A DNA stretch of 25,772 nucleotides. It comes from a virus. The notes beneath the pieces are model-generated. The model did not search any database, had not been told where the DNA came from, and saw nothing but the letters and a program-made list of their open reading frames with translations. The number at the start of each line of letters is the position of its first letter. The stretch's first letter is position 1. Both the position numbers and the translations under genes were made by a program. This document shows, piece after piece, positions 2-9,388 of the stretch. The DNA is taken from positions 1-25,772 of IMG/VR virus record IMGVR_UViG_3300037808_001105. One strand, 5' to 3'.

Positions 2-757
2 TACAATGGCCTCGGAAATATACTTATCAAAACAATTAATGAACATGGGTCATGGACTTTTGACTATCCTGAATTTAGATATACTGAAAAAGCAAACACT
101 GTAGTGTATAATTATGCGGATGGGGGTATGCCAAGTTCATTAGGTTGGAGAAATAATTATAGACCTAATATGAGACTTGGATTTGGTGGGGGTGGTGGAG
201 CATTACCAATTGTTTTGACTTCTTTTACAGGAGAAGCCACAGAAAATAATACAGTAAATTTAAGTTGGGAGGTATTATCACAAGTAAATAATGATTATTT
301 TACTATTGAAAGAAGTTTAAATTGTAGGAAATGGGAGGTTGTAGGTAAAATAGAGGGAGCAGGAAATAATAATACGGGAATGAGTTATAATTTATTAGAT
401 AGTAACCCTCATAGAGGGTTATCTTATTATAGATTGTCACAAACGGACTATGACGGAAGATATGAAATATTTGATCCTATATCTGTTGAAGTGAGTGAAT
501 ATAATACCGTTGGTTTAAATATTATACCCAACCCTGCTATTGATTATATACAACTAGAATTAGTTTACCCCTATGACCACCCCATTAATCATGATGTGAA
601 GATTTATAATTCTCAAGGAAAGGAAGTTTATGATATGTTTTATATGGGAGAGTTGGAGAATTTTTCTATTAATATTAAAAAACTCAAACCGGGGTATTAT
701 GTTGTTAATACTAAAAGCGATAATAATAAAGGAACAGGTAAATTTATTAAAGAATGA
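2..757 (+). CDS. Secreted protein with T9SS type A C-terminal sorting domain (5' end outside window)
   Basis: The reading frame is open from base 2 without a stop, so this is the 3' part of a longer gene; a GTG at 104 could be called a start but nothing supports it. After a glycine-rich linker (GFGGGGGALPIVL) comes a domain common just before T9SS signals in Bacteroidota, with the pattern NLSWEV...NNDYFTIERS...W...G...YYRLSQTDYDGRYE. The last ~80 residues fit the type A sorting domain (Por_Secre_tail/TIGR04183): IIPNPAIDYIQLE, VKIYNSQGKEVYD, INIKKLKPGYYVV and a basic GKFIKE end. In known systems this domain directs Sec-exported cargo through the outer membrane and is then removed or linked to surface LPS. 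What the N-terminal part does cannot be seen. The stop codon overlaps the next gene's ATG, so the two are probably co-translated. The family call is strong; the role in a phage is inference. Confidence 0.85.
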   Translation, partial: YNGLGNILIKTINEHGSWTFDYPEFRYTEKANTVVYNYADGGMPSSLGWRNNYRPNMRLGFGGGGGALPIVLTSFTGEATENNTVNLSWEVLSQVNNDYFTIERSLNCRKWEVVGKIEGAGNNNTGMSYNLLDSNPHRGLSYYRLSQTDYDGRYEIFDPISVEVSEYNTVGLNIIPNPAIDYIQLELVYPYDHPINHDVKIYNSQGKEVYDMFYMGELENFSINIKKLKPGYYVVNTKSDNNKGTGKFIKE

Positions 758-1137
758 TGTTAATAAGAGAAGAATCAACTACCCCTTATGTAAAATTGGA
801 TAAGGAAAATTGCACATTAACTATTAAAGGCAAATCATACCCAGAACACCCCACTATATTTTATACTCCTATATTAAATGAGTTGAAAGATTGTATATCC
901 TCTCTAGGAGATGTTGGTATTACTGTTAATCTGGCACTAGAAATAATGAATTCAGTTTCTACTAAGTATATTTACAACATAATATCAAATATAAATAAAT
1001 CCTCAGACAAAATCAAAATTAATTGGTATTATGAGGAGGATGATCAAGATATGGAGGAAGAAGGGCAACAACTTACAACAACATTTAAAAATATAAAAGT
1101 TAAACTAATTCCTACGGAAGATATAAGAAATTTATAG
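754..1137 (+). CDS. SiaC-like regulatory phosphoprotein (DUF1987 family)
   Basis: A 127-residue protein matching the whole length of the SiaC/DUF1987 family: TPYVKLD near residues 10-16, GKSYPEHPTIFYTPIL at 26-41, and the very characteristic WYYEEDDQDMEEEGQ at 91-105. In Pseudomonas aeruginosa SiaC is switched by the kinase SiaB and phosphatase SiaA and, when unphosphorylated, activates the diguanylate cyclase SiaD. The phosphorylated Thr of that family lies in a conserved loop of the form NTSS(S/T)K; here the loop reads NSVSTK (66-71), so Ser replaces Thr but a phosphorylatable residue remains. No kinase, phosphatase or cyclase partner is in the window, so it would have to act on host partners. 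ATG at 754 overlaps the upstream TGA (ATGA); a second in-frame ATG follows directly. Family assignment is confident, its function in a phage is unknown. Confidence 0.88.
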   Translation: MMLIREESTTPYVKLDKENCTLTIKGKSYPEHPTIFYTPILNELKDCISSLGDVGITVNLALEIMNSVSTKYIYNIISNINKSSDKIKINWYYEEDDQDMEEEGQQLTTTFKNIKVKLIPTEDIRNL

Positions 1138-1150
1138 AAAATGCGCAGGG

Positions 1151-1182
1151 AATTTGGAGAAGCAAAAAACAGTTCGTATATT
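1151..1182 (+). repeat. Direct repeat copy 1 (promoter-bearing element)
   Basis: This 32-base stretch matches 3875-3906 at 27 of 32 positions, including TTGGAGAA and the block GTTCGTATATT. Both copies sit between a stop codon and the next gene of a new transcription block, so the repeat is best explained as a duplicated or convergently kept promoter. Confidence 0.7.
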
Positions 1183-1184
1183 GG
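1153..1184 (+). promoter_or_regulatory. Bacteroidota-type promoter P1
   Basis: TTTG at 1153-1156 and TATATTGG at 1177-1184, separated by 20 bases, fit the Bacteroidota vegetative promoter (TTTG near -33, TAnnTTTG near -7). It lies about 25 bases before the ATG at 1210. A near-identical copy stands at 3877-3908. Transcription would start near 1190 and read the membrane protein and the three secreted proteins. Confidence 0.6.
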
Positions 1185-1209
1185 CGTATAAATTAAAAAA
1201 ATATAAATT

Positions 1210-1398
1210 ATGAGTTATGTATTGGTGTATGTGTTAATTGGAGTGTTATTAAGTTTTATTTTTGATGTATTAAACGAATTTGTTTTACATCCGGAAGATA
1301 AGATAAAATTTGATTGGGGAATGAGAATTATTAATGCTGTTATATGGCCCTATGTTTTAGGGGCGTTTATTAATTGTTTTGTTAATCACAATAGATAA
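1210..1398 (+). CDS. Small membrane protein, two predicted TM segments
   Basis: A 62-residue protein with a hydrophobic stretch at about residues 3-24 (YVLVYVLIGVLLSFIF) and a second at about 40-57 (IINAVIWPYVLGAFINCFV), separated by a charged loop (HPEDKIKFDWGMR). It is the first gene after promoter P1 and its TAA is followed one base later by the ATG of a secreted protein, so the genes look like one operon. The family is not recognised. Size and two-helix layout would also fit a holin or anti-holin, but it is 5 kb from the endolysin and next to exported proteins, so a role in the envelope together with those proteins is equally possible. Confidence 0.65.
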   Translation: MSYVLVYVLIGVLLSFIFDVLNEFVLHPEDKIKFDWGMRIINAVIWPYVLGAFINCFVNHNR

Positions 1399-1399
1399 A

Positions 1400-2722
1400 A
1401 TGAGGAGATTATTTTTATTATTTACGTTATTAGTTCCCCTTATTATATATACCCAGGTGGGAAATGATGATTGTGCGAATGCCACTCCTTTAGGTAATCT
1501 ACCAAATCCCGTAAATTGTGGGAATGGTCCCAACGCAAATGGACAAGGAGCCCCAGTTACTTTCAATAATCTCACAAATATAAATTCATTAACAGAATTT
1601 CCCTATACAACATTAGTTAATTGCCAGGGTGGTGGAAATAATATGGCTTCTCCTGCTACTGATGTTTGGTATTCATTTGTAGCTACAGGGAATTCTCTAG
1701 ATATAACAATCAATGGAAATATCAATCAACCAAACATTGGTGTATGGACTGGAAATTGTGGTGCATTAATAGGATCTGGTTGTGATATTGGGGGTGGAGG
1801 AAACTTAAATACAACAGTAGCCCAAGTTGCTCCCGGACAAACCTATTATATTCAAATAAGTGGTGGGAATCCTGCTGATCAGGGCACATTTGATTTAACT
1901 CTACAAAACAATAATAGTTGTGATGACTGTTTATTATCATCAACAATGACTGTGGCACCCTTGCCCGTTAACGGAGTATATCAAGCGGGTACCAACGTTA
2001 CCTTTTGTTTTACAATAACAGAATGGTCTCAAGAAAATTCTAATTGGTTTCACGGTATTGTTCCAATAATGGGGGCAGGATGGGGACCTATAAATCCAAT
2101 AAGTGCTGCTAATACTTGTGATGGTGGTTCAGGAATATGGGCTTGGTTCAATGGAGTGAACACACCCAACGGTAATTCAAATGGGTTTTTCTTTGATGGG
2201 GATTTATTTCAATTTCCAAACGGAAATCCAACCGGAAATTATGGGGATAACTGTGATGGGAATGTCAATTGGGAATTCTGTTGGGAAGCCACTGCTGTAG
2301 CTTGCCCACCTGGCCAAGATGGTGATGATTTAAGTGTGTTTGTTGAAACATATGCAGATGGTGAGACTGGGAGTTGGACAAACATAGCCTGCCAAACAGA
2401 TCCTGTTTTTGCATTTGCTGCTAGTTTAACTTGCTGCCCACCACCAACAGAAGTTCATACTGATGAAACTTGTCTAGGAGAAGAAGATGGAACAATCACA
2501 ATAACAGGACAAGGAAGCGCACCATGGGATTATACATGGTTTGATCAAAACGGAAATACAATACAAACGTCAAATAACGTTAATGGAACAGATAATATGA
2601 CGGGGTTGGCTAATGGAATATATGATGTATCCGTTATAGATAATGATGGTTGCGCACAAACAATACAAATAACAATATTACCCGGGGGGCAAGCGTCCAC
2701 TGTAGGTATTTTTCACAATTAA
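1400..2722 (+). CDS. Secreted multidomain protein with SprB-like repeat and IFHN C-terminus
   Basis: Start is set at the ATG at 1400 rather than the TTG at 1379, because it begins a clean signal peptide (MRRLFLLFTLLVPLIIYTQ) and follows the upstream TAA by one base. The 440-residue product then has: GNDDCANATPL and a beta-sandwich of pre-peptidase C type (DVWYSFVATG ... PGQTYYIQISGG ... GTFDLTL, about 87-168); a Cys- and aromatic-rich domain typical of large Bacteroidota surface proteins (TFCFTITEW ... WEFCWEATAVACPPG ... YADGETGSW ... CC, about 175-345); and one repeat resembling SprB repeats (DETCLGEEDGTITITG ... GLANGIYDVSVIDNDGCAQT, about 353-430). It ends GIFHN, as does the next product. 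There is no recognisable T9SS sorting domain. The many cysteines, absent from virion proteins nearby, suggest extracellular disulfides. Probable role: surface-displayed adhesin-like or receptor-interfering protein (inference). Confidence 0.82.
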   Translation: MRRLFLLFTLLVPLIIYTQVGNDDCANATPLGNLPNPVNCGNGPNANGQGAPVTFNNLTNINSLTEFPYTTLVNCQGGGNNMASPATDVWYSFVATGNSLDITINGNINQPNIGVWTGNCGALIGSGCDIGGGGNLNTTVAQVAPGQTYYIQISGGNPADQGTFDLTLQNNNSCDDCLLSSTMTVAPLPVNGVYQAGTNVTFCFTITEWSQENSNWFHGIVPIMGAGWGPINPISAANTCDGGSGIWAWFNGVNTPNGNSNGFFFDGDLFQFPNGNPTGNYGDNCDGNVNWEFCWEATAVACPPGQDGDDLSVFVETYADGETGSWTNIACQTDPVFAFAASLTCCPPPTEVHTDETCLGEEDGTITITGQGSAPWDYTWFDQNGNTIQTSNNVNGTDNMTGLANGIYDVSVIDNDGCAQTIQITILPGGQASTVGIFHN

Positions 2723-2747
2723 TAACTAACAAATAAAAACAAAACAA

Positions 2748-3293
2748 ATGAAAAAACTATTAATTTTACTCGGAGTATTAATTTCTTCTACAGCATTCAG
2801 TCAAATCACAACAAGCCCAGATACAGTATGTGTAGGTGCCGTTGGTGAAAATTATTGGGTAACCCCAACAGCGGGTTCAACTTATGGTTGGACAGTAAAC
2901 GGAGGGGGTGGTACCATTACTTCAGGCCAAGGAACAGATGCTATAACAATTGATTGGGGTAACAATCCTGGTCTATTTCCATTAGCAATTGAAGTTATAG
3001 AAACTAATGTAAACGGTTGTACAGATACAGTGGAGTTGGATATTTTTATCTTACTACCAACGTTTAACCAGATTGGTCCTTTTTGTGAGGGAGATCCATG
3101 TGTAGCATTAATCGGTACACCTGCAGGTGGAACTTGGACAGGTACTGGGGTAACACCAGTAGCGGGGGGTTATGAATTTTGTCCAAACGCATCAGGTACA
3201 TTTAACTTAACTTATACAGTAGGTGGATGTTCAATAGTAATGCAAGTAGTAGTTAATCCATTACCAGTAATAGGGCCTATCTTCCATAACTAG
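2748..3293 (+). CDS. Secreted two-domain Ig/PKD-like protein with IFHN C-terminus
   Basis: A 181-residue protein with a typical Bacteroidota signal peptide (MKKLLILLGVLISSTAFSQ). Residues ~20-100 form a PKD-like domain (DTVCVGAVGENYWV, STYGWTVNGGGG, DAITIDWG, NGCTDTVELDI), closely paralleled in the following gene. Residues ~100-175 form a second small beta domain with CEGDPC, GGTWTGTGV and YTVGGCS. It ends PIFHN, the same last four residues as the upstream secreted protein despite little similarity before them. No T9SS sorting domain is seen. A 25-base A-rich gap separates it from the upstream gene, and its TAG stop overlaps the GTG start of the next. Function unknown; likely part of a surface assembly with its two neighbours. 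Confidence 0.8.
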   Translation: MKKLLILLGVLISSTAFSQITTSPDTVCVGAVGENYWVTPTAGSTYGWTVNGGGGTITSGQGTDAITIDWGNNPGLFPLAIEVIETNVNGCTDTVELDIFILLPTFNQIGPFCEGDPCVALIGTPAGGTWTGTGVTPVAGGYEFCPNASGTFNLTYTVGGCSIVMQVVVNPLPVIGPIFHN

Positions 3294-3865
3294 TGAGGAG
3301 ACTATTAACCATATTATTTTTACTGCCCTGTTTTGTTTTTTCTCAACAGTCGATAGAGGTATGCACTGAAAATCAAGCATACCTCCAAGATTATTGGGTT
3401 GCTAATGGGGATAATCAATACTTTTGGAGTGTTGAAGGTGGTGTAATAGAAGCCAACAATGGTAATTCTATAACAGTTAATTGGCTCAACGTCCCCTATG
3501 AACAATATTTAATAACAGTTTATGTTATTAGTAATGCGGGGTGTGAAGGAGACACTGCTAATCTGTGGGTTGATATTGATGAATGTTCATTTAATGGATT
3601 ATATGTTCCTAACGCATTTACCCCTAATGGTGATGGAGAAAATGATAATTTTATAGCAATAGGTGAAAATATTGATAAATTAGAATTATTTATTTTTAAT
3701 AGGTGGGGAGAGTTAATTTACCAAACATATTATGGGGAACCATGGGATGGTAAAATGAATAACGTAGATTGTCAGATAGATGTTTATGTTTGGATGATAA
3801 ACTATAAATTTACAGATGATAATTTTTATAAGACTGAACATGGTCATGTTACTTTAGTAAGGTAA
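3293..3865 (+). CDS. Secreted protein with T9SS type B (CHU_C) sorting domain
   Basis: The GTG start at 3293 shares a base with the upstream TAG (TAGTG), and it is the only start that keeps the signal peptide (MRRLLTILFLLPCFVFSQ). Residues 20-96 are a PKD-like domain parallel to the preceding product (YFWSVEGGVIEANNG, SITVNW, NAGCEGDTANLWVDI). Residues ~100-190 match the gliding-motility-associated type B sorting domain (TIGR04131/CHU_C): YVPNAFTPNGDGENDNF at 104-120, FNRWGELIY at 135-143, WDGK at 151-154, DVYVWMINYKF at 163-173 and the terminal GHVTLVR. In Flavobacterium johnsoniae, type B domains send SprB and other cargo through T9SS with SprF/PorP-type partners. At 190 residues this is close to a minimal cargo: signal, one Ig-like domain, sorting domain. 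Confidence 0.88.
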   Translation: MRRLLTILFLLPCFVFSQQSIEVCTENQAYLQDYWVANGDNQYFWSVEGGVIEANNGNSITVNWLNVPYEQYLITVYVISNAGCEGDTANLWVDIDECSFNGLYVPNAFTPNGDGENDNFIAIGENIDKLELFIFNRWGELIYQTYYGEPWDGKMNNVDCQIDVYVWMINYKFTDDNFYKTEHGHVTLVR

Positions 3866-3874
3866 TTGTAAAAA

Positions 3875-3906
3875 AACTTGGAGAACCAAAATATGGTTCG
3901 TATATT
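3875..3906 (+). repeat. Direct repeat copy 2 (promoter-bearing element)
   Basis: Second copy of the 32-base element at 1151-1182, with 27 of 32 bases identical. Mismatches fall mainly in the spacer, while the TTG and TATATT boxes are kept, as expected of a promoter. Confidence 0.7.
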
Positions 3907-3908
3907 AT
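3877..3908 (+). promoter_or_regulatory. Bacteroidota-type promoter P2
   Basis: CTTG at 3877-3880 and TATATTAT at 3901-3908 with 20 bases between TTG and TA, the same spacing as P1. The arms TTGG/CCAA and AACCA/TGGTT inside it could form small alternative hairpins. If transcription starts about 6 bases past the -7 box (near 3914), the ATG at 3909 is upstream of the transcript, which favours the in-frame ATG at 3924 for the next gene. Confidence 0.6.
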
Positions 3909-3923
3909 ATGAAAATAAATGTT

Positions 3924-4151
3924 ATGAGTAGACACGTAAAAGAATTAAAAGAACAAAAAGAAGCAGTTTATGGCTGTGACGATTATGGATATTTTTATCT
4001 ATTATTTGATGATAAGAATGGGATTCCCGAAGATGATTTTTTGATAGAGAAACAGGGCAGTGTTCCTAAAGAGGATTTCGTAAAATTTCTAAAAGAAATA
4101 GGTGCAGACCCTAAACACATTTCACTAGCAAGGAGAGAAAAACAATTTTAA
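3924..4151 (+). CDS. Small hypothetical protein, first gene after promoter P2
   Basis: A 75-residue soluble protein beginning MSRHVKELKEQKEAVYG; an in-frame ATG at 3909 would add five residues, but it lies inside or before the presumed transcription start of P2. The body has an aromatic/acidic patch (YGCDDYGYFYLLFDDKNG) and a lysine-rich helix-like end (PKEDFVKFLKEIGADPKHI). It ends one base before the ATG of the HExxH-VWA protein, so the two are probably co-expressed. I do not recognise a family; an accessory or adaptor of the downstream protein is only a guess. Confidence 0.6.
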   Translation: MSRHVKELKEQKEAVYGCDDYGYFYLLFDDKNGIPEDDFLIEKQGSVPKEDFVKFLKEIGADPKHISLARREKQF

Positions 4152-4152
4152 C

Positions 4153-5856
4153 ATGGATAAGATACATTCAGCTTATTGGTTCAAGGATATTGGGCAGGTC
4201 GAGGACCTGTCCCTCTTTGATTATGCTTCTATTCAAAATAGTATCTCTAATTTTGTTAAGATAATAACAGAGAGGGATGATATTAAGGTAGAATTTGCTT
4301 CCTCAAGTGAAGAGGGGGGTAAATCAACAAAAGATACAATTACAATCTCTTCCCAAATATATAAGGAAAACATTGACAGCATTGTGGGTTTAACTTTACA
4401 CGAAGCATCCCATATTTTACTTACAGACTTTGATTTTAAAAAAGAATACATTCAAGGAGGAAATAACAACAAGAACTTCCATTCGATATTAAATTGGATA
4501 GAAGACAGACGCATAGATCATTATATATTAAGTAGTATCGCAGGTTATCGCGGTTATTACGCTAAATTATACGATAAATATTTCAATAATCTGAAGGTAA
4601 AGACTCAAATAGAACATTCTAAAAATAGGGACTCTAAGAACATTCATTGTTGGATTTTTCACTTAATTAATATGGTCTCTAAACATAGAGATGTAAAGGC
4701 ATTAAAGGGTTTGGATAAACTTTATAAGTTAATTGATTTAAAGAATATAAATAGACTTAAGTCAACTCAAGATGCTTACGAATTGGCTTTAGATGTATGG
4801 GATTTTATAAATGATAGGATTGAGGGGGATATTTACGAACACCTTCCCATCCTTGAGGATCAAGACGATTTTGTAAATGGAAACGTTAAAAAGAAACCTA
4901 TTCCTTCTAAGAAAAAGTCACTTATCGAACAAATAAGTAAATTAAATATTAAAGATTTAAAAAGGTCTAGTTTATTAGATAATGTAAAACCTAAAGATAA
5001 AAAGCTAAAAGATGATTTTCTTCACAACTTTTTACACCCAACCCAACTCCCATCAAATGAGATACCAATAAAAGAGGGTATTGTTATGGGTAAAAAATTA
5101 GCCTCAAAACTACAATTTAGAAACTTAGATCAAAAAGTAACTTACCATAACCAAAAGAAAGGCAAAATTGACCCAAAGAACCTCTATAAGGCTACTTTCG
5201 ATGATTTGATTTTCAAACAGGACTTCATTAAAGAACATAAAAAGACTCACATACATTTATCTATTGATGGGAGTGGAAGTATGTGTATGTACGGAAAGGA
5301 TTATAAGACTCTAAAGTTAAGTGCTTGTATGGCTACAATAGCATGTTTAATACCCGATATTAGGGTTTCTATAAGTGTTAGGAAGATAAAAACTAATAGT
5401 AGAAAGAGAGATGCGAATATAGTTCTCGCCAGAAAGCCAATAACAATAATTATGTTTGATTCTCTAACAGACGATATTAAAGATATTTCTAAATTGGGAC
5501 ATATTGACTTTAAAGATTTAACTCCAGAAGGGTTATGTTTTGATAGTATTAAGAAATATATGGAAATAAACCCAATAAATCAGGAGAAGATAGTTTTTGT
5601 AAATATATCAGATGGTTTTCCTTCGGCTATGTTGGATACTGTTAAAGAAAAAGTTGAAGAAGTTACGAGGAAAAAAATAAATGAATTTAAAAGAGAAGGG
5701 GTTGATGTACTAAGTTATTTTGTAGAAAGTGGTTCTACTTTAAAAGCAACTAAGGGTCTTAAAACATTTAAAAGAATGTATGGAAATACAAGTGAAACTT
5801 TAAACGTAGATAATTTTTCGAAAATATTAAGAGATATAAATAAACAATTAAAATAA
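4153..5856 (+). CDS. CobT-like protein: HExxH metallopeptidase-like N-terminus plus VWA domain
   Basis: The 567-residue product has an N-terminal zinc-peptidase-like signature, TLHEASHILL (H83-E84-x-x-H87), followed by IEDRRIDHY (E117/D118 as possible third ligand). A lysine-rich linker (~240-300) leads to a C-terminal von Willebrand factor A domain with a full MIDAS: DGSGS (D372, S374, S376), TPEG (T457) and ISDG (D487). This layout is that of the CobT-like/DUF2201-type VWA proteins, which normally work with a MoxR- or CobS-type AAA+ ATPase; T4-like cyanophages often carry a CobS homologue. No ATPase gene is in the window, so the partner would be upstream, elsewhere in the phage, or from the host. 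Its substrate in phages is unknown, and cobalamin synthesis is not implied. The stop overlaps the next ATG (TAATG). Confidence 0.8.
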   Translation: MDKIHSAYWFKDIGQVEDLSLFDYASIQNSISNFVKIITERDDIKVEFASSSEEGGKSTKDTITISSQIYKENIDSIVGLTLHEASHILLTDFDFKKEYIQGGNNNKNFHSILNWIEDRRIDHYILSSIAGYRGYYAKLYDKYFNNLKVKTQIEHSKNRDSKNIHCWIFHLINMVSKHRDVKALKGLDKLYKLIDLKNINRLKSTQDAYELALDVWDFINDRIEGDIYEHLPILEDQDDFVNGNVKKKPIPSKKKSLIEQISKLNIKDLKRSSLLDNVKPKDKKLKDDFLHNFLHPTQLPSNEIPIKEGIVMGKKLASKLQFRNLDQKVTYHNQKKGKIDPKNLYKATFDDLIFKQDFIKEHKKTHIHLSIDGSGSMCMYGKDYKTLKLSACMATIACLIPDIRVSISVRKIKTNSRKRDANIVLARKPITIIMFDSLTDDIKDISKLGHIDFKDLTPEGLCFDSIKKYMEINPINQEKIVFVNISDGFPSAMLDTVKEKVEEVTRKKINEFKREGVDVLSYFVESGSTLKATKGLKTFKRMYGNTSETLNVDNFSKILRDINKQLK

Positions 5857-6134
5857 TGGCAAAAAGAGGTAGACCAAAATCAGAACCCAAAGAAGAAGTA
5901 ACAAAATACACCCAAGTGGTTAAACACGATGATGGTGCAGTAACTACCTGGTATTGGGATAAATCAATTAGACCCTTTAATGAGGGGCCTATCAAAACAG
6001 TAACTAAGTGGCCTAAGGGTTATTTAGATTTTGAACAGATGCAAGAATTACTCCCAAGAACAAAAAGGAAATATATGTTAGATGATGGGAGAATAGTGGG
6101 ATATGCGAGAGCTAAAGCACTAGGATTTATATAG
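5856..6134 (+). CDS. Small basic protein with AT-hook-like N-terminus
   Basis: A 92-residue protein whose start, MAKRGRPKSEPK, holds the RGRP core of an AT-hook, a minor-groove binder of AT-rich DNA. The rest is mixed alpha/beta with several tryptophans and aromatics (TTWYWDKSI, VTKWPKGYLDFEQMQELLP) and ends with a basic segment (RTKRKYMLDDGRIVGYARAKALGFI). The ATG overlaps the TAA of the VWA gene. DNA binding is suggested only by the hook motif; no family is recognised. Confidence 0.6.
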   Translation: MAKRGRPKSEPKEEVTKYTQVVKHDDGAVTTWYWDKSIRPFNEGPIKTVTKWPKGYLDFEQMQELLPRTKRKYMLDDGRIVGYARAKALGFI

Positions 6135-6158
6135 TATCGTATTTTTTTACTATTTGGG

Positions 6159-6175
6159 TATATTTAATAATAAAC
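6159..6175 (+). promoter_or_regulatory. Recurring ATATTTA motif before 6185 (late-promoter candidate)
   Basis: TATATTTAATAATAAAC lies 26 bases before the ATG at 6185 in a 50-base gap. It belongs to the family of ATATTTAt/a motifs also seen at 7256, 8621, 11253, 15096 and 25254. Confidence 0.3.
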
Positions 6176-6184
6176 TATATATTT

Positions 6185-6373
6185 ATGGAAGAACAAGAAC
6201 TATATGATGAATTAGAATTTATCAAGGACGAAATGAAGAATGGTGAAATAGATGTAGAAGCCGCCACTAAGAAACTTGAAGAAGTTTTAATTCAAATTGA
6301 AGAATTAATAGAAAGTAAATTAGATAATCTTAACGGAGATTACGACCAAATGGACTTATATGAAGACAATTAA
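6185..6373 (+). CDS. Small acidic coiled-coil protein
   Basis: A 62-residue, strongly acidic, almost wholly helical protein (EEQELYDELEFIKDEMKNG, KKLEEVLIQIEELIESKLD) with heptad-like hydrophobic spacing. Its last 14 bases overlap the start of the endolysin gene in another frame, so translation of the two is probably linked. No family recognised. It could be a chaperone-like or regulatory partner of the endolysin, but only the overlap supports that. Confidence 0.6.
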   Translation: MEEQELYDELEFIKDEMKNGEIDVEAATKKLEEVLIQIEELIESKLDNLNGDYDQMDLYEDN

Positions 6374-7226
6374 ATCAGGTGATACTGGAGAAAAAGTAAG
6401 ACAAATCCAAACGGCCCTACAAATAGGGGTTGATGGTAAATTTGGTAATTTAACTGAACTTTCCGTTAGAAAATTTCAAGACCAAAATGACTTAGAAATA
6501 GATGGTGTAGTAGGTCCTCTAACTTGGAAGGCCTTAAAAATAGATGAAGTAAAAGAAGAAGAATCAACTCCATCAAATACTACAAACGATTCAAATTATT
6601 TATGGATTTTTGACAATGGTCACGGAGGCATTATAGATGGTGTATATCAAACATCAGGCAAAAGATCACCTAAATGGGATGATGGTTCTATTTTATATGA
6701 AGGTGAATTTAATAGAGCTATTGTTAATAGATTAATAAAATTATGTACTGATGCAGGAATTGAGTGTGTTAACTTAGTTGATACACAAGAAGATATTCCA
6801 TTATCTAAAAGAACAGACAAAGCAAACGACATCTATCGTGAACAAAGAGATAAAGATGGTAAACAATGCATTTATATTTCTGTACATGCGAACGGATTTT
6901 CTAAAGAATCAGCAAATGGTTGGTCAGTTTACACTTCTGAAGGTGAAACAAAGTCAGACATAGTGGCTTCAGTTTTAGCAAAGAACGCAGCAGCTGAATT
7001 TCCAGATGAAAAAATGAGAAAAGATACTCGTGATGGTGATGCAGATAAAGAATCTAATTTTTGGGTATTAAGGAAAACAGTAATGCCATCAATTCTTAGT
7101 GAGAATTTCTTTATGACCAACTATAATAATTGCCATAAATATTTACTTTCGGAAGAGGGTAGAGATAGGATAGCAAAAATTCACTTTCAAATGGTGCAAG
7201 AAATAGAAGAGAAAAAATTAGTGTGA
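6360..7226 (+). CDS. Endolysin: PG-binding domain plus N-acetylmuramoyl-L-alanine amidase (Amidase_3)
   Basis: The 288-residue product starts with a PG_binding_1 domain (SGDTGEKVRQIQTAL, GVDGKFGNLTELSVRKFQ, DGVVGPLTWKAL; residues 5-60), then a Ser/Thr/Asn linker, then an Amidase_3 zinc amidase (~80-285). Expected metal ligands are visible: H88 in FDNGHGG, E116 in YEGEFN, H176 in SVHANG, and the catalytic E248 in LSENFF; R151 in LSKRTDKAND is also typical. It would cut the bond between MurNAc and the stem-peptide L-Ala to lyse the host at the end of infection. There is no signal peptide or TM segment, so it needs a holin or other export route; no sure holin is in the window. The N-terminal place of the binding domain is less usual than a C-terminal one. 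Confidence 0.92.
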   Translation: MKTIKSGDTGEKVRQIQTALQIGVDGKFGNLTELSVRKFQDQNDLEIDGVVGPLTWKALKIDEVKEEESTPSNTTNDSNYLWIFDNGHGGIIDGVYQTSGKRSPKWDDGSILYEGEFNRAIVNRLIKLCTDAGIECVNLVDTQEDIPLSKRTDKANDIYREQRDKDGKQCIYISVHANGFSKESANGWSVYTSEGETKSDIVASVLAKNAAAEFPDEKMRKDTRDGDADKESNFWVLRKTVMPSILSENFFMTNYNNCHKYLLSEEGRDRIAKIHFQMVQEIEEKKLV

Positions 7227-7255
7227 AAATTAAATTAAGTTTGTCTTTTTTTTCC

Positions 7256-7276
7256 ATATTTATCGATATATAATAA
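7256..7276 (+). promoter_or_regulatory. AT-rich promoter candidate before 7294
   Basis: ATATTTATCG at 7256-7265 followed by TATATAATAA at 7267-7276 sits in the 67-base gap before the ATG at 7294. A TTTG at 7240-7243 upstream leaves a 23-base spacer to TATATAAT, slightly long for a host-type promoter, so either promoter class is possible. Confidence 0.3.
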
Positions 7277-7293
7277 CTTACAAACAATAAAAA

Positions 7294-7995
7294 ATGGCTA
7301 GATTATCAAACCTCGTCCCAGACAAAGCAAGAGAATTAGTAATGGCAACTGATAGAGTTAACCCTTACGAACTTAAAAATGGCTTAGAATATGAAGCAAT
7401 TAAGAAAGGATACAGTTGCTTTAGTACTTTAGAGGAAGAAGACAGAAAAGCATCTATAAAAATAGTAGAAGCAGTGTTAAAAAACCTTGGAACTTATCAA
7501 GCATACTACTCTGTTCTATCAGAATATGAAGGTATGAAAACAGGAGGTCAATTTAACGATAAAAAACCACCTACATTTAAAAAATATTTAAAAACAGTAA
7601 CTGAAGCCCCAAAAGATAAAATGGAAAAATCAAAATTAAAAGAAAGCTTCCACAGCTTAATTAAAGAAGTAATAAATGAAGCTAAAGAGGAAAAGAAAGA
7701 ACCTAAAAAGAAAGAACCTAAAACAGGATTAGAAGGAGTAATGGAAAGAACTGAAGGATACGTTAATGAAATTAAAAGTATTGTTAGTGAAAAGTTAAAA
7801 GAAACTAAACAAAAACTTAAAGAACTTAAACCAGTCCTTAAAGAACTCTACACGGAGACCGAGAAGAAGACAACTCGCGATCCTAAAAATAAAATGGCGT
7901 ACATGGAAGTATATAAATCTGACCCCATGGTTAAGGAGTTTTTAGATGTAAAGGGGAAGCTCGAAGAAATGATTGAAATAGCAAACTCCCTATAA
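7294..7995 (+). CDS. Hypothetical Lys/Glu-rich protein
   Basis: A 233-residue protein. Residues 1-105 look folded (LVPDKARELVMATDRVNPYE, GTYQAYYSVLSEYEG); residues ~106-200 are a long charged helical region with short EPKKK repeats near 137-143 and coiled-coil stretches (SEKLKETKQKLKELKPVLKE). Residues 114-130 (KLKESFHSLIKEVINEA) resemble the N-terminal helix shared by the products at 8356 and 8654. It is the first gene of a four-gene run ending at the terminator at 9073. The function is unknown; a virion-internal or scaffold-associated protein is possible from composition alone. Confidence 0.6.
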   Translation: MARLSNLVPDKARELVMATDRVNPYELKNGLEYEAIKKGYSCFSTLEEEDRKASIKIVEAVLKNLGTYQAYYSVLSEYEGMKTGGQFNDKKPPTFKKYLKTVTEAPKDKMEKSKLKESFHSLIKEVINEAKEEKKEPKKKEPKTGLEGVMERTEGYVNEIKSIVSEKLKETKQKLKELKPVLKELYTETEKKTTRDPKNKMAYMEVYKSDPMVKEFLDVKGKLEEMIEIANSL

Positions 7996-7996
7996 T

Positions 7997-8350
7997 ATGG
8001 CGTTTGACATCCATAATTGGCAAATAAAAAGAGCCAACACTCAATATCAACTTTTACAAGAAGAAAAACAACCAATTCAGTTCCCTATAGAGGGACAGAA
8101 TTTGGAGTTTGATGTTTTCTTTTACGAAGGAGAAGGTAATTTCTACTATCAGTTTCTCCCAAAAAACAATGAAGTATTAGATTTAATAGAACAAATCGGA
8201 AAACAAAGGGTTTCAGAAGAAATAGCCAAATATATAGAAATTAAAACAACCTTTATTGCTCCCTTTGATGAAGATGCTACCGGGGCAGGGATGAATTTTA
8301 AAATATTACCAAGCGAACTTAAGGGTTATATGTTAAGTCCTTTCAAATAA
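7997..8350 (+). CDS. Hypothetical protein, 117 residues
   Basis: A soluble alpha/beta protein starting MAFDIHNWQIKRANTQ, with a beta-rich centre (LEFDVFFYEGEGNFYYQFLP) and a C-terminal half containing EIKTTFIAPFDEDATG and NFKILPSELKGYML. One base separates its ATG from the stop of the preceding gene, and five bases separate its stop from the next ATG, so it is co-transcribed with both. No family or catalytic motif is recognised. Confidence 0.65.
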   Translation: MAFDIHNWQIKRANTQYQLLQEEKQPIQFPIEGQNLEFDVFFYEGEGNFYYQFLPKNNEVLDLIEQIGKQRVSEEIAKYIEIKTTFIAPFDEDATGAGMNFKILPSELKGYMLSPFK

Positions 8351-8355
8351 ATAAA

Positions 8356-8598
8356 ATGAAAAAATCCGAATTAATAGAAATTATTAAGGAAGAGATTGCC
8401 AAAATCTTAAGTGAAGACAGCACAGGCATGGTGGGAAGTATGTATGGTGAGAATGAACATCTTAGATATAAAAATGAACCTTATTTAGATAATAATATTC
8501 GTAAACCTCTCAAAAATACAGACCACGCCAGACATTACGTGCATAGTAACGTATCTGATGTAACCGAAAACAGAAAAATAAGGAAAAAATTAAAATAA
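8356..8598 (+). CDS. Small protein with N-terminal EEI helix
   Basis: An 80-residue protein that opens with an amphipathic helix, MKKSELIEIIKEEIAKILSE, a type of start that recurs in this genome (8654, and more loosely 15109). The helix ends in LSE, which fits the (L/I)-x-E cleavage pattern of the T4 prohead protease, so a capsid-targeting or propeptide role can be imagined but is not shown. The remainder is polar and probably disordered (ENEHLRYKNEPYLDNNIRK, TDHARHYVHSNVSDVTENRK) with a basic end. Confidence 0.6.
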   Translation: MKKSELIEIIKEEIAKILSEDSTGMVGSMYGENEHLRYKNEPYLDNNIRKPLKNTDHARHYVHSNVSDVTENRKIRKKLK

Positions 8599-8620
8599 AC
8601 GATGTTTTCCTAAATTTATA

Positions 8621-8634
8621 TATATTTATTAGCA
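8621..8634 (+). promoter_or_regulatory. Recurring ATATTTA motif before 8654 (late-promoter candidate)
   Basis: TATATTTATTAGCA lies 33 bases before the ATG at 8654 in a 55-base gap, and resembles the motifs at 11253 and 25254. Confidence 0.3.
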
Positions 8635-8653
8635 AATATTAACACATACTCAA

Positions 8654-9055
8654 ATGAACAGAAGAGAATTAAATAACCTTATCAAAGAAGAGCTGTCAGC
8701 AGCGGTACAAGGACACCCATCATACCTCGAAGAAGTAGAAGACATGGAGGCCGGAGACGTAGAAGGCGGAGAAGGAGAAGAAGACATTATGGATTCTCTA
8801 CAAGGATTTTATGAAAAATTAAAAGCCCATTTTGAGGGAGAAGCAGAAGGTGGAGAAGACGGTGAAGAAAAAACTGACGATGAAGAAAAAGAAATGGAAG
8901 ACGAGGAAGAAGCTCCTGAGGACGTAGAAGAGGGGAAGAAGAAGAAAGCTAAAGCTCCAAAAGGAGATCCAGAGGAAAAAGACGAAAAAGACGAATTAGA
9001 AAAATTAAACGAATCAGTTAAACGATTCCAAAAATTAGCCAATATTAGAGGTTAA
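8654..9055 (+). CDS. Highly acidic, low-complexity protein (scaffold/internal-protein candidate)
   Basis: A 133-residue protein with the helix MNRRELNNLIKEELSAAV at the start, then a very acidic tract (EDMEAGDVEGGEGEEDIMD; EGEAEGGEDGEEKTDDEEKE), a lysine patch (GKKKKAKAPKG) and a C-terminal helix (ELEKLNESVKRFQKLANIRG). The DNA is almost all purine on the + strand from about 8730 to 9010. Acidic, helical, low-complexity proteins of this size are typical of prohead core or scaffold proteins in T4-like phages, but no capsid gene is in the window, so this stays a guess. It is the last gene before the terminator at 9073. Confidence 0.6.
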   Translation: MNRRELNNLIKEELSAAVQGHPSYLEEVEDMEAGDVEGGEGEEDIMDSLQGFYEKLKAHFEGEAEGGEDGEEKTDDEEKEMEDEEEAPEDVEEGKKKKAKAPKGDPEEKDEKDELEKLNESVKRFQKLANIRG

Positions 9056-9072
9056 TTCATATAACATTAATT

Positions 9073-9104
9073 AAAGGGCATACCGTCAGGTGTGCCCTTT
9101 TGTA
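9073..9104 (+). terminator. Strong rho-independent terminator
   Basis: AAAGGGCATACC (9073-9084) pairs over 12 positions with GGTGTGCCCTTT (9089-9100), with a single G-T wobble and a GTCA tetraloop, followed by a T-rich stretch (TTTTGT). It closes the 7294-9055 run and separates it from the HD/sigma block. Confidence 0.9.
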
Positions 9105-9136
9105 GTTCTTATTAAAATTGTTTGGGTTCCCGAGAA

Positions 9137-9388
9137 ATGTTATTTACAATAAAACAAAAAATAAATTTTATGGATGCAAATTATGAAAATCGATTTAGAG
9201 CTCAGGCTGTTAATCGTCTAGACAGATTAGACGCTGGGTTAGCTAGAGTTTACACTTATGTTAAACGAAATGAAAATGAAAAGGCTTTACATTTTATGGA
9301 TAATGAGTTAAAAGACTTATACATGGGGTTGGAAGATATTATTAAAGCAAATCGAGACACTATGGGCTCACAAATAGGAACTATATAA
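9137..9388 (+). CDS. Small helical hypothetical protein
   Basis: The first gene after the terminator. Starts are possible at ATG 9137 (83 residues, MLFTIKQKINFMDANYENRF) or ATG 9170 (72 residues, MDANYENRFRAQ); a TTG at 9122 is unlikely. TTG at 9118-9120 and TATTTACA at 9141-9148, 20 bases apart, weakly resemble the host-type promoter, and if that is real, the start at 9170 is the right one, with an A-rich leader before it. The product is an all-helical, charged protein (AVNRLDRLDAGLARVYTYVK, EKALHFMDNELKDLYMGLED). No family recognised. Two bases separate it from the HD-domain gene. Confidence 0.6.
   Translation: MLFTIKQKINFMDANYENRFRAQAVNRLDRLDAGLARVYTYVKRNENEKALHFMDNELKDLYMGLEDIIKANRDTMGSQIGTI

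Follow-up and report, generated by a model that had tools for sequence, protein, structure and literature searches.

A phage operon encoding a candidate split SprB/CHU_C-type adhesin with a recurrent I-x-H-N tail and a single T9SS sorting domain

Introduction

What would a phage do with three exported proteins encoded side by side, of which only the last carries a sorting signal for the T9SS of its host? This question is raised by an IMG/VR record, a linear phage fragment of 25,772 bases, all of which is covered by the stretch analysed here (the window). A preliminary description of the locus, made from sequence, had proposed a tightly coupled four-gene operon behind one promoter, encoding a small membrane protein and three signal-peptide proteins with SprB-like, PKD-like and type B sorting domains, and had suggested that the phage builds a surface assembly with the help of the host T9SS, one that might mask a receptor or exclude other phages. 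The host side of the question is better known. Flavobacterium columnare becomes resistant to phage when its gld and spr genes are mutated (PMC9233685), from which it follows that the T9SS-built surface matters for phage docking. In F. johnsoniae, the PorP/SprF shuttles are scarce and are needed in stoichiometric amount by type B cargo (PMC12618676), and SprB has been found bound to SprF, with type B cargo remaining on its shuttle at the surface (PMC9143113).

Results

The window and its neighbourhood

A contractile-tail block that includes baseplate wedge proteins makes up the right-hand part of the window, and its wedge protein is 45–46% identical to the homologues of Flavobacterium phage vB_FspM_immuto and Microcystis phage Mel-JY01. 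Based on the T9SS domains described below and on the kinship to a Flavobacterium phage, we infer that the host probably belongs to the Bacteroidota. The features discussed are collected in Table 1, in which the three exported proteins are designated A, B and C.

Table 1. Position of the features discussed, in bases of the window
Feature	Position	Strand	E-value	Remarks
Truncated protein with T9SS type A domain	2-757		9e-10	left end of the window; overlooked in the preliminary description
SiaC-family protein	754-1137		3e-30	left end of the window; overlooked in the preliminary description
Promoter-like motif TTTGGAGA-N11-GTTCGTATATT	1153-1182	+		before the 62-aa gene and A/B/C; 0 mismatches
62-aa small membrane protein	1210-1398	+		upstream of A/B/C
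A	1400-2722	+		signal peptide, N-terminal beta domains, SprB-type repeat, tail STVGIFHN; no sorting domain
Tail of A, STVGIFHN	2699-2719	+
B	2748-3293	+		signal peptide, PKD_6 domain, second Ig-like domain, tail PVIGPIFHN; no sorting domain
Tail of B, PVIGPIFHN	3264-3290	+
C	3293-3865	+		signal peptide, PKD-like domain, CHU_C type B T9SS sorting domain; GTG start
Second copy of promoter-like motif	3877-3906	+		straight after C; marks the end of the cassette
80-aa gene	3909-4151			next gene after C; driven by the second motif copy
Amidase endolysin	6360-7226

Two neighbours deserve a separate mention. A T9SS type A protein with a SiaC-family gene close behind is found both at the left end of the window (2-1137) and in the 210-kb genome designated L011 (locus L092, 2967-6062), where the pair lies about 25 kb from the relatives of A, B and C, and this pair is a second recurrent phage module. 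The SiaC-like family is named by NCBI for biofilm regulation; a literature search for SiaC gave nothing. Further downstream, the conserved 567-aa phage protein (4153-5856) contains a DGSGSM motif resembling a VWA-type metal site and gave no significant Pfam or PHROG match.

A three-gene cassette behind a repeated promoter-like motif

All four open reading frames of the proposed operon were confirmed. The tight coupling claimed for them holds at two of the three junctions, namely the single base between the stop codon of the 62-aa gene (TAA, 1396-1398) and the ATG of A (1400), and the TAGTG overlap in which the GTG start of C shares one base with the stop codon of B, but not between A and B, where the gap is 25 bases. 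The claim of a single promoter gained support from a repeated motif, TTGGAGA-N11-GTTCGTATATT, of which the window holds two copies (1154-1182 and 3878-3906) against 0.03 expected. In the sister phage L003, nine copies occur within 580-9320, on a single strand and always ahead of its structural block, and none was found in another 20 kb of that contig. The motif is limited to the accessory-gene region, and it resembles the Bacteroidota -33/-7 promoter with extra conserved bases.

The same sister phage corrects the composition of the system. It retains the 62-aa, 80-aa and 567-aa neighbours, the last with 86% identity, and lacks A, B and C, whose slot is taken by a TIM-barrel gene and a 140-aa gene. 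The TIM-barrel gene (8388-9284, 298 aa) presumably resembles a UV damage endonuclease. Because the neighbours are kept while the slot holds other genes, A, B and C form an exchangeable cassette, and an operon of four genes that includes the 62-aa gene is ruled out: the system consists of three genes (four, with an additional gene D, in one phage), and the 62-aa gene is independent of it. A, B and C recur together in many phages, and the 62-aa gene is kept in L003, where they are absent.

Three exported proteins, one sorting domain

Signal peptides of the Bacteroidota type, judged from the sequence by eye and with a hydrophobicity script, are present in A, B and C as a hydrophobic core with Gln at the likely cleavage site. 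The PKD-like domain assigned earlier was recovered in B above the cut-off (PF19408, 4.9e-9), and the type B sorting domain in C by two models, CHU_C (PF13585, 2.3e-14; 53.7 bits against a curated cut-off of 27) and TIGR04131 (2.4e-13; 50 bits against 35). It is this domain that A and B are without. The SprB-like label fared less evenly, since a Pfam search of A gave no SprB match at E up to 1, but the C-terminal domain of A aligns with the SprB-type repeats of relatives, among them the phage protein of locus L008. The A protein of the window is 79% identical to that of L011. Predicted models of the proteins reached a pLDDT near 70, and a PDB fold search with A and B returned generic Ig/beta-sandwich matches of low TM-score, with no specific ligand domain among them. 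Against PHROG, the best match for A was Hoc-like and not significant (E=0.03), and B and C gave none.

The pieces correspond to one adhesin chain

The same domain order (signal peptide, N-terminal domains, SprB-type repeats, PKD domains, CHU_C) is found within one gene at six phage loci (L005, L007, L008, L010, L012 and L013), some of them in huge phages, with no split and no I-x-H-N tail. Phages that encode these kinds of domain in one chain are the uncultured LR745206 (635 kb), LR756502 (642 kb) and those represented by IMG/VR contigs measuring 385 kb, 281 kb and less. Bacterial relatives of A, at 61–62% identity, come from metagenome-assembled genomes of marine Flavobacteriales and form the N-terminus of long proteins. 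Among those whose end lies within the locus, most finish in a CHU_C-type domain, and two end in apparent frame breaks or truncations. Hence, judged by their predicted domains, A, B and C are one SprB/CHU_C-type adhesin chain in pieces; where an SprB-type adhesin usually unites signal peptide, repeats and type B domain in a single long chain, the window has three proteins.

Several features of the single-chain loci are recorded here for their own sake. In the 642-kb phage, a 1670-aa protein (L008, 6379-11391) combines some twelve SprB-type repeats with a CHU_C end, and the 635-kb phage also encodes an EF-G-like protein (L007, 10018-11982). Beside type B chains, ends resembling a shortened type A sorting domain were seen at L012 (6185-7873), L013 (13243-14661) and L010 (5709-6776), mostly under the Pfam threshold.

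The split form was found in nine phage lineages including the window, with partial cases cut by contig or locus ends, the phage contigs being metagenomic and often truncated. The order A-B-C occurs in the window and in L148, L150 and L153; B-C in L004, L105 and L147; A-B-C-D in L011; and L006 encodes a replacement of A followed by B. Two further loci, L152 and L155, seem to be near duplicates of L148 and L153. A short version of A (198 aa), reduced to the middle domain, occurs in L150 and L153, and in L148 A is cut at its start. Relatives of A, B and C were found in no isolated phage, only uncultured ones having matched among 50,697 records. A pattern scan found no cellular relatives of B, and weaker profile matches in bacterial genomes sit mostly within long open frames. 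The dN/dS ratios (0.07–0.36, with synonymous sites near saturation in some pairs) bear the clear mark of purifying selection. In a tree of C proteins, a branch with 82/78 support, recovered in 84% of bootstraps, has those of the split form on the same side, so a single old split event appears likely.

A four-residue tail on the pieces that lack a sorting domain

A and B of the window share the C-terminal residues IFHN, which the preliminary description had overlooked. Across phages, A ends in VGIFHN, SSIWHN, GPISHN or GVISHN, and B in GPIFHN, GPIIHN, GPINHN, SPIQHN, TPISHN or TPIQHN. D of L011 ends in NVIFHN, and the replacement of A in L006, which has a reelin-like domain and is unrelated to A, in IGIFHN. 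All pieces without the sorting domain, that is A, B, D and the A replacement, therefore finish in I-x-H-N-COOH. Within the 210-kb L011 contig, an HN end is found in exactly three of about 251 genes (as counted by greedy choice of open reading frames), and these three are A, B and D; from composition, I-x-H-N would be expected by chance at about 1 in 10,000 protein ends. All four combinations of His and Asn codons are seen in the tails, and this free choice of codons indicates that selection acts on the protein.

The tail can also be used to find the module. When IMG/VR was scanned at the DNA level for the B form of the tail overlapping a start codon, with no other homology required, 8 of the 10 stretches recovered were B/C pairs, of which two (L004 and L011) were already known and six were new records. 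Within the samples scanned, the tail, as far as sequence goes, belongs to the phage module.

Two other roles for the tail were considered. A DNA-level signal for translation coupling is ruled out, as the tails of A and D overlap no start codon and the codons vary. A general host signal is not supported, as xPIxHN-stop gave 37 matches in 399 Flavobacteriales genomes against about 90 for a reversed-pattern control (a count made by eye), and of the 30 matches that were located, not one ends a plausible gene.

The tail of B plus mature C has the length of the fused linker in most pairs

Ahead of their last PKD domain, three fused proteins have the linkers PQISQITPYNDFYEVC, PIITPISPDNVFFELC and PLILSILPSSQYITVC, each of which measures 16 residues from Pro to Cys when counted by hand. 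If signal cleavage before Gln is assumed, the tail of B from its Pro, joined to mature C up to the same Cys, gives the same 16 residues in six of eight split pairs (PVIGPIFHN followed by QQSIEVC, for example) and 18 residues in the remaining two. Mature C would thus start where the first part of the linker strand belongs, which makes the B tail its natural replacement in trans and suggests docking of the B tail onto C in the manner of a strand donor. The clean match in length applies to B and C only, and B, which retains its own first strand, offers no evident acceptor for the tails of A and D. The AlphaFold model of B leaves the tail disordered, and that of A draws it as a strand on A itself with modest confidence.

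No shuttle gene found in 14 phage records

A search for PorP/SprF (PF11751) found none in 14 phage records, while the same search gave strong matches in three bacterial control genomes, so a host shuttle would have to be used. A linked shuttle gene is typical of type B cargo and not strictly required, as orphan cargo without one is known (PMC12618676). In addition, tiny proteins with hardly more than a signal peptide and a CHU_C domain are encoded in the L011 genome and in both huge phages (L018, 4839-5258; L025, 2838-3218; L026, 3509-3859), and these are possible decoys for host type B shuttles. The central proposal of the preliminary description, a phage-made surface assembly displayed by the host T9SS, withstood the analysis: signal peptides on all three proteins, a sorting domain on C only, the joint recurrence of A, B and C, purifying selection, and a shuttle search of the phages that found none all agree with it.

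Discussion

Our reading is that A, B and C are separate subunits of one SprB/CHU_C-type adhesin, docked through their tails, displayed by the T9SS through a host shuttle and altering the surface of the infected cell; we give it a probability of about one half. Each protein would cross the inner membrane by Sec, the tails would serve as free linker strands that dock into the PKD/Ig-like domain of a partner (the B tail, at least, into C), and the type B domain of C would bring the complex to the surface by way of the host T9SS and a host PorP/SprF shuttle. With less certainty, the displayed complex and the use of scarce shuttles might change the surface of the infected cell such that competing phages adsorb less; coating the host surface or using up type B shuttles could exclude rivals, and receptor masking or superinfection exclusion by A, B and C is possible. 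We further infer that the tail acts as an assembly tag. In its broader form, in which I-x-H-N-COOH would be transferable and would dock signal-peptide proteins non-covalently, in strand-donor fashion, on a single CHU_C carrier for the ride to the surface, we put this forward tentatively and would not call it probable.

The shuttles themselves invite a simpler explanation, namely that the type B domain of C acts as a decoy which occupies scarce PorP/SprF shuttles or the translocon and so reduces the display of those host adhesins on which phages dock, A and B being of minor importance. Shuttle supply is limiting, with one shuttle consumed for each cargo (PMC12618676), gld and spr mutants are phage resistant (PMC9233685), no shuttle was found in the phages, and the very short signal peptide plus CHU_C proteins of the huge phages and of the L011 genome look suited to such a role; but selection on A and B and the conserved tails would be left unexplained, and a decoy needs no 440-aa partner, so that we regard it as unlikely. 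Much the same holds for the idea that the complex is an adhesin of the infected cell, sticking it to particles, host tissue or other cells so that the burst finds hosts or the cells stay put, with exclusion incidental. The bacterial relatives are adhesin-like giant CHU_C proteins, and a neighbouring gene is of the SiaC-like biofilm-regulation family of NCBI, but the distance of some 25 kb between the SiaC gene and A-D in the L011 genome makes that link unspecific and the fold search found no ligand-specific domain; we doubt this explanation as well.

That the proteins belong to the particle, either as a fibre on the virion or as exported proteins picked up by it after lysis, is brought to mind by the operon's neighbours in the window and in L105, which are tail or lysis genes. 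However, the cytoplasmic assembly line is not where signal peptides and a T9SS domain point, no structural PHROG match was significant, the promoter motif occurs in the accessory region only and the sister phage does without the cassette. A part in the virion is therefore very improbable in our view, and the accessory class of the promoter and the exchangeable slot suggest that a takeover or exclusion gene fits the sequence data better. As to the tail, it might be a functionless leftover of the splitting of the gene, given that fused linkers such as PVVGPITYN and PIITPISPDN look like tails. Yet these fused linkers do not have HN, the ending is common to proteins with unrelated domains (D of L011 and the A replacement of L006), it is kept where C is only 33% identical, and all four His/Asn codon combinations occur, which together make a mere relic improbable.

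Returning to the reading of a tail-docked, surface-displayed adhesin, the four-residue tail yields a prediction of assembly partners among otherwise unrelated exported proteins. If the reading is right, it shows how a single carrier can display proteins that lack a T9SS signal, and it provides a small surface-display tool for Bacteroidota. It would also indicate that large Bacteroidota phages recurrently remodel the host surface, possibly via competition for scarce type B shuttles. If the tail is truly transferable, Bacteroidota phages would own a plug-in kit for the display of exchangeable proteins on their host.

Several known systems lie close to the one described here. SprB and other type B adhesins of Bacteroidota share with A, B and C the signal peptide, the Ig/PKD/SprB-type domains and the TIGR04131/CHU_C end, and the bacterial chains include the N-terminal domains of A at the 61–62% identity given above. 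They are, however, single giant chains, often with the shuttle gene directly downstream (PMC9143113, PMC12618676), whereas the phage operon encodes three chains and no shuttle.

Chaperone-usher pili are built by donor-strand assembly, in which a terminal peptide of one subunit completes the Ig-like domain of the next. There the donor is N-terminal and the protein families are other ones, while the donor proposed from sequence for the phage tails is C-terminal.

Among phages, vB_FspM_immuto (Immutovirus) is one of the closest isolates by its baseplate wedge protein (45% identity), and no relative of A, B or C was found in it. Neither a split phage adhesin nor an I-x-H-N tail came up in a search of the open-access literature, a four-residue tail being hard to search for. 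The nearest precedent is Cryophage, which has strain-variable genes for T9SS-labelled proteins; Bellas et al. 2020 (PMC7468147) proposed that these serve in competition or in superinfection exclusion. The statement that the operon is not a standard phage module must therefore be narrowed, because both T9SS cargo and the idea of exclusion have already been published for that phage (PMC7468147). Both systems are phage-encoded T9SS cargo, but in Cryophage each labelled protein, be it an enzyme or the PA14 protein, is one chain with a type A domain, while in A, B and C the domain is of type B, an adhesin-like chain is split in three and the tails are carried by the unlabelled pieces. It is this split, tail-tagged form of phage T9SS cargo that appears to be new.
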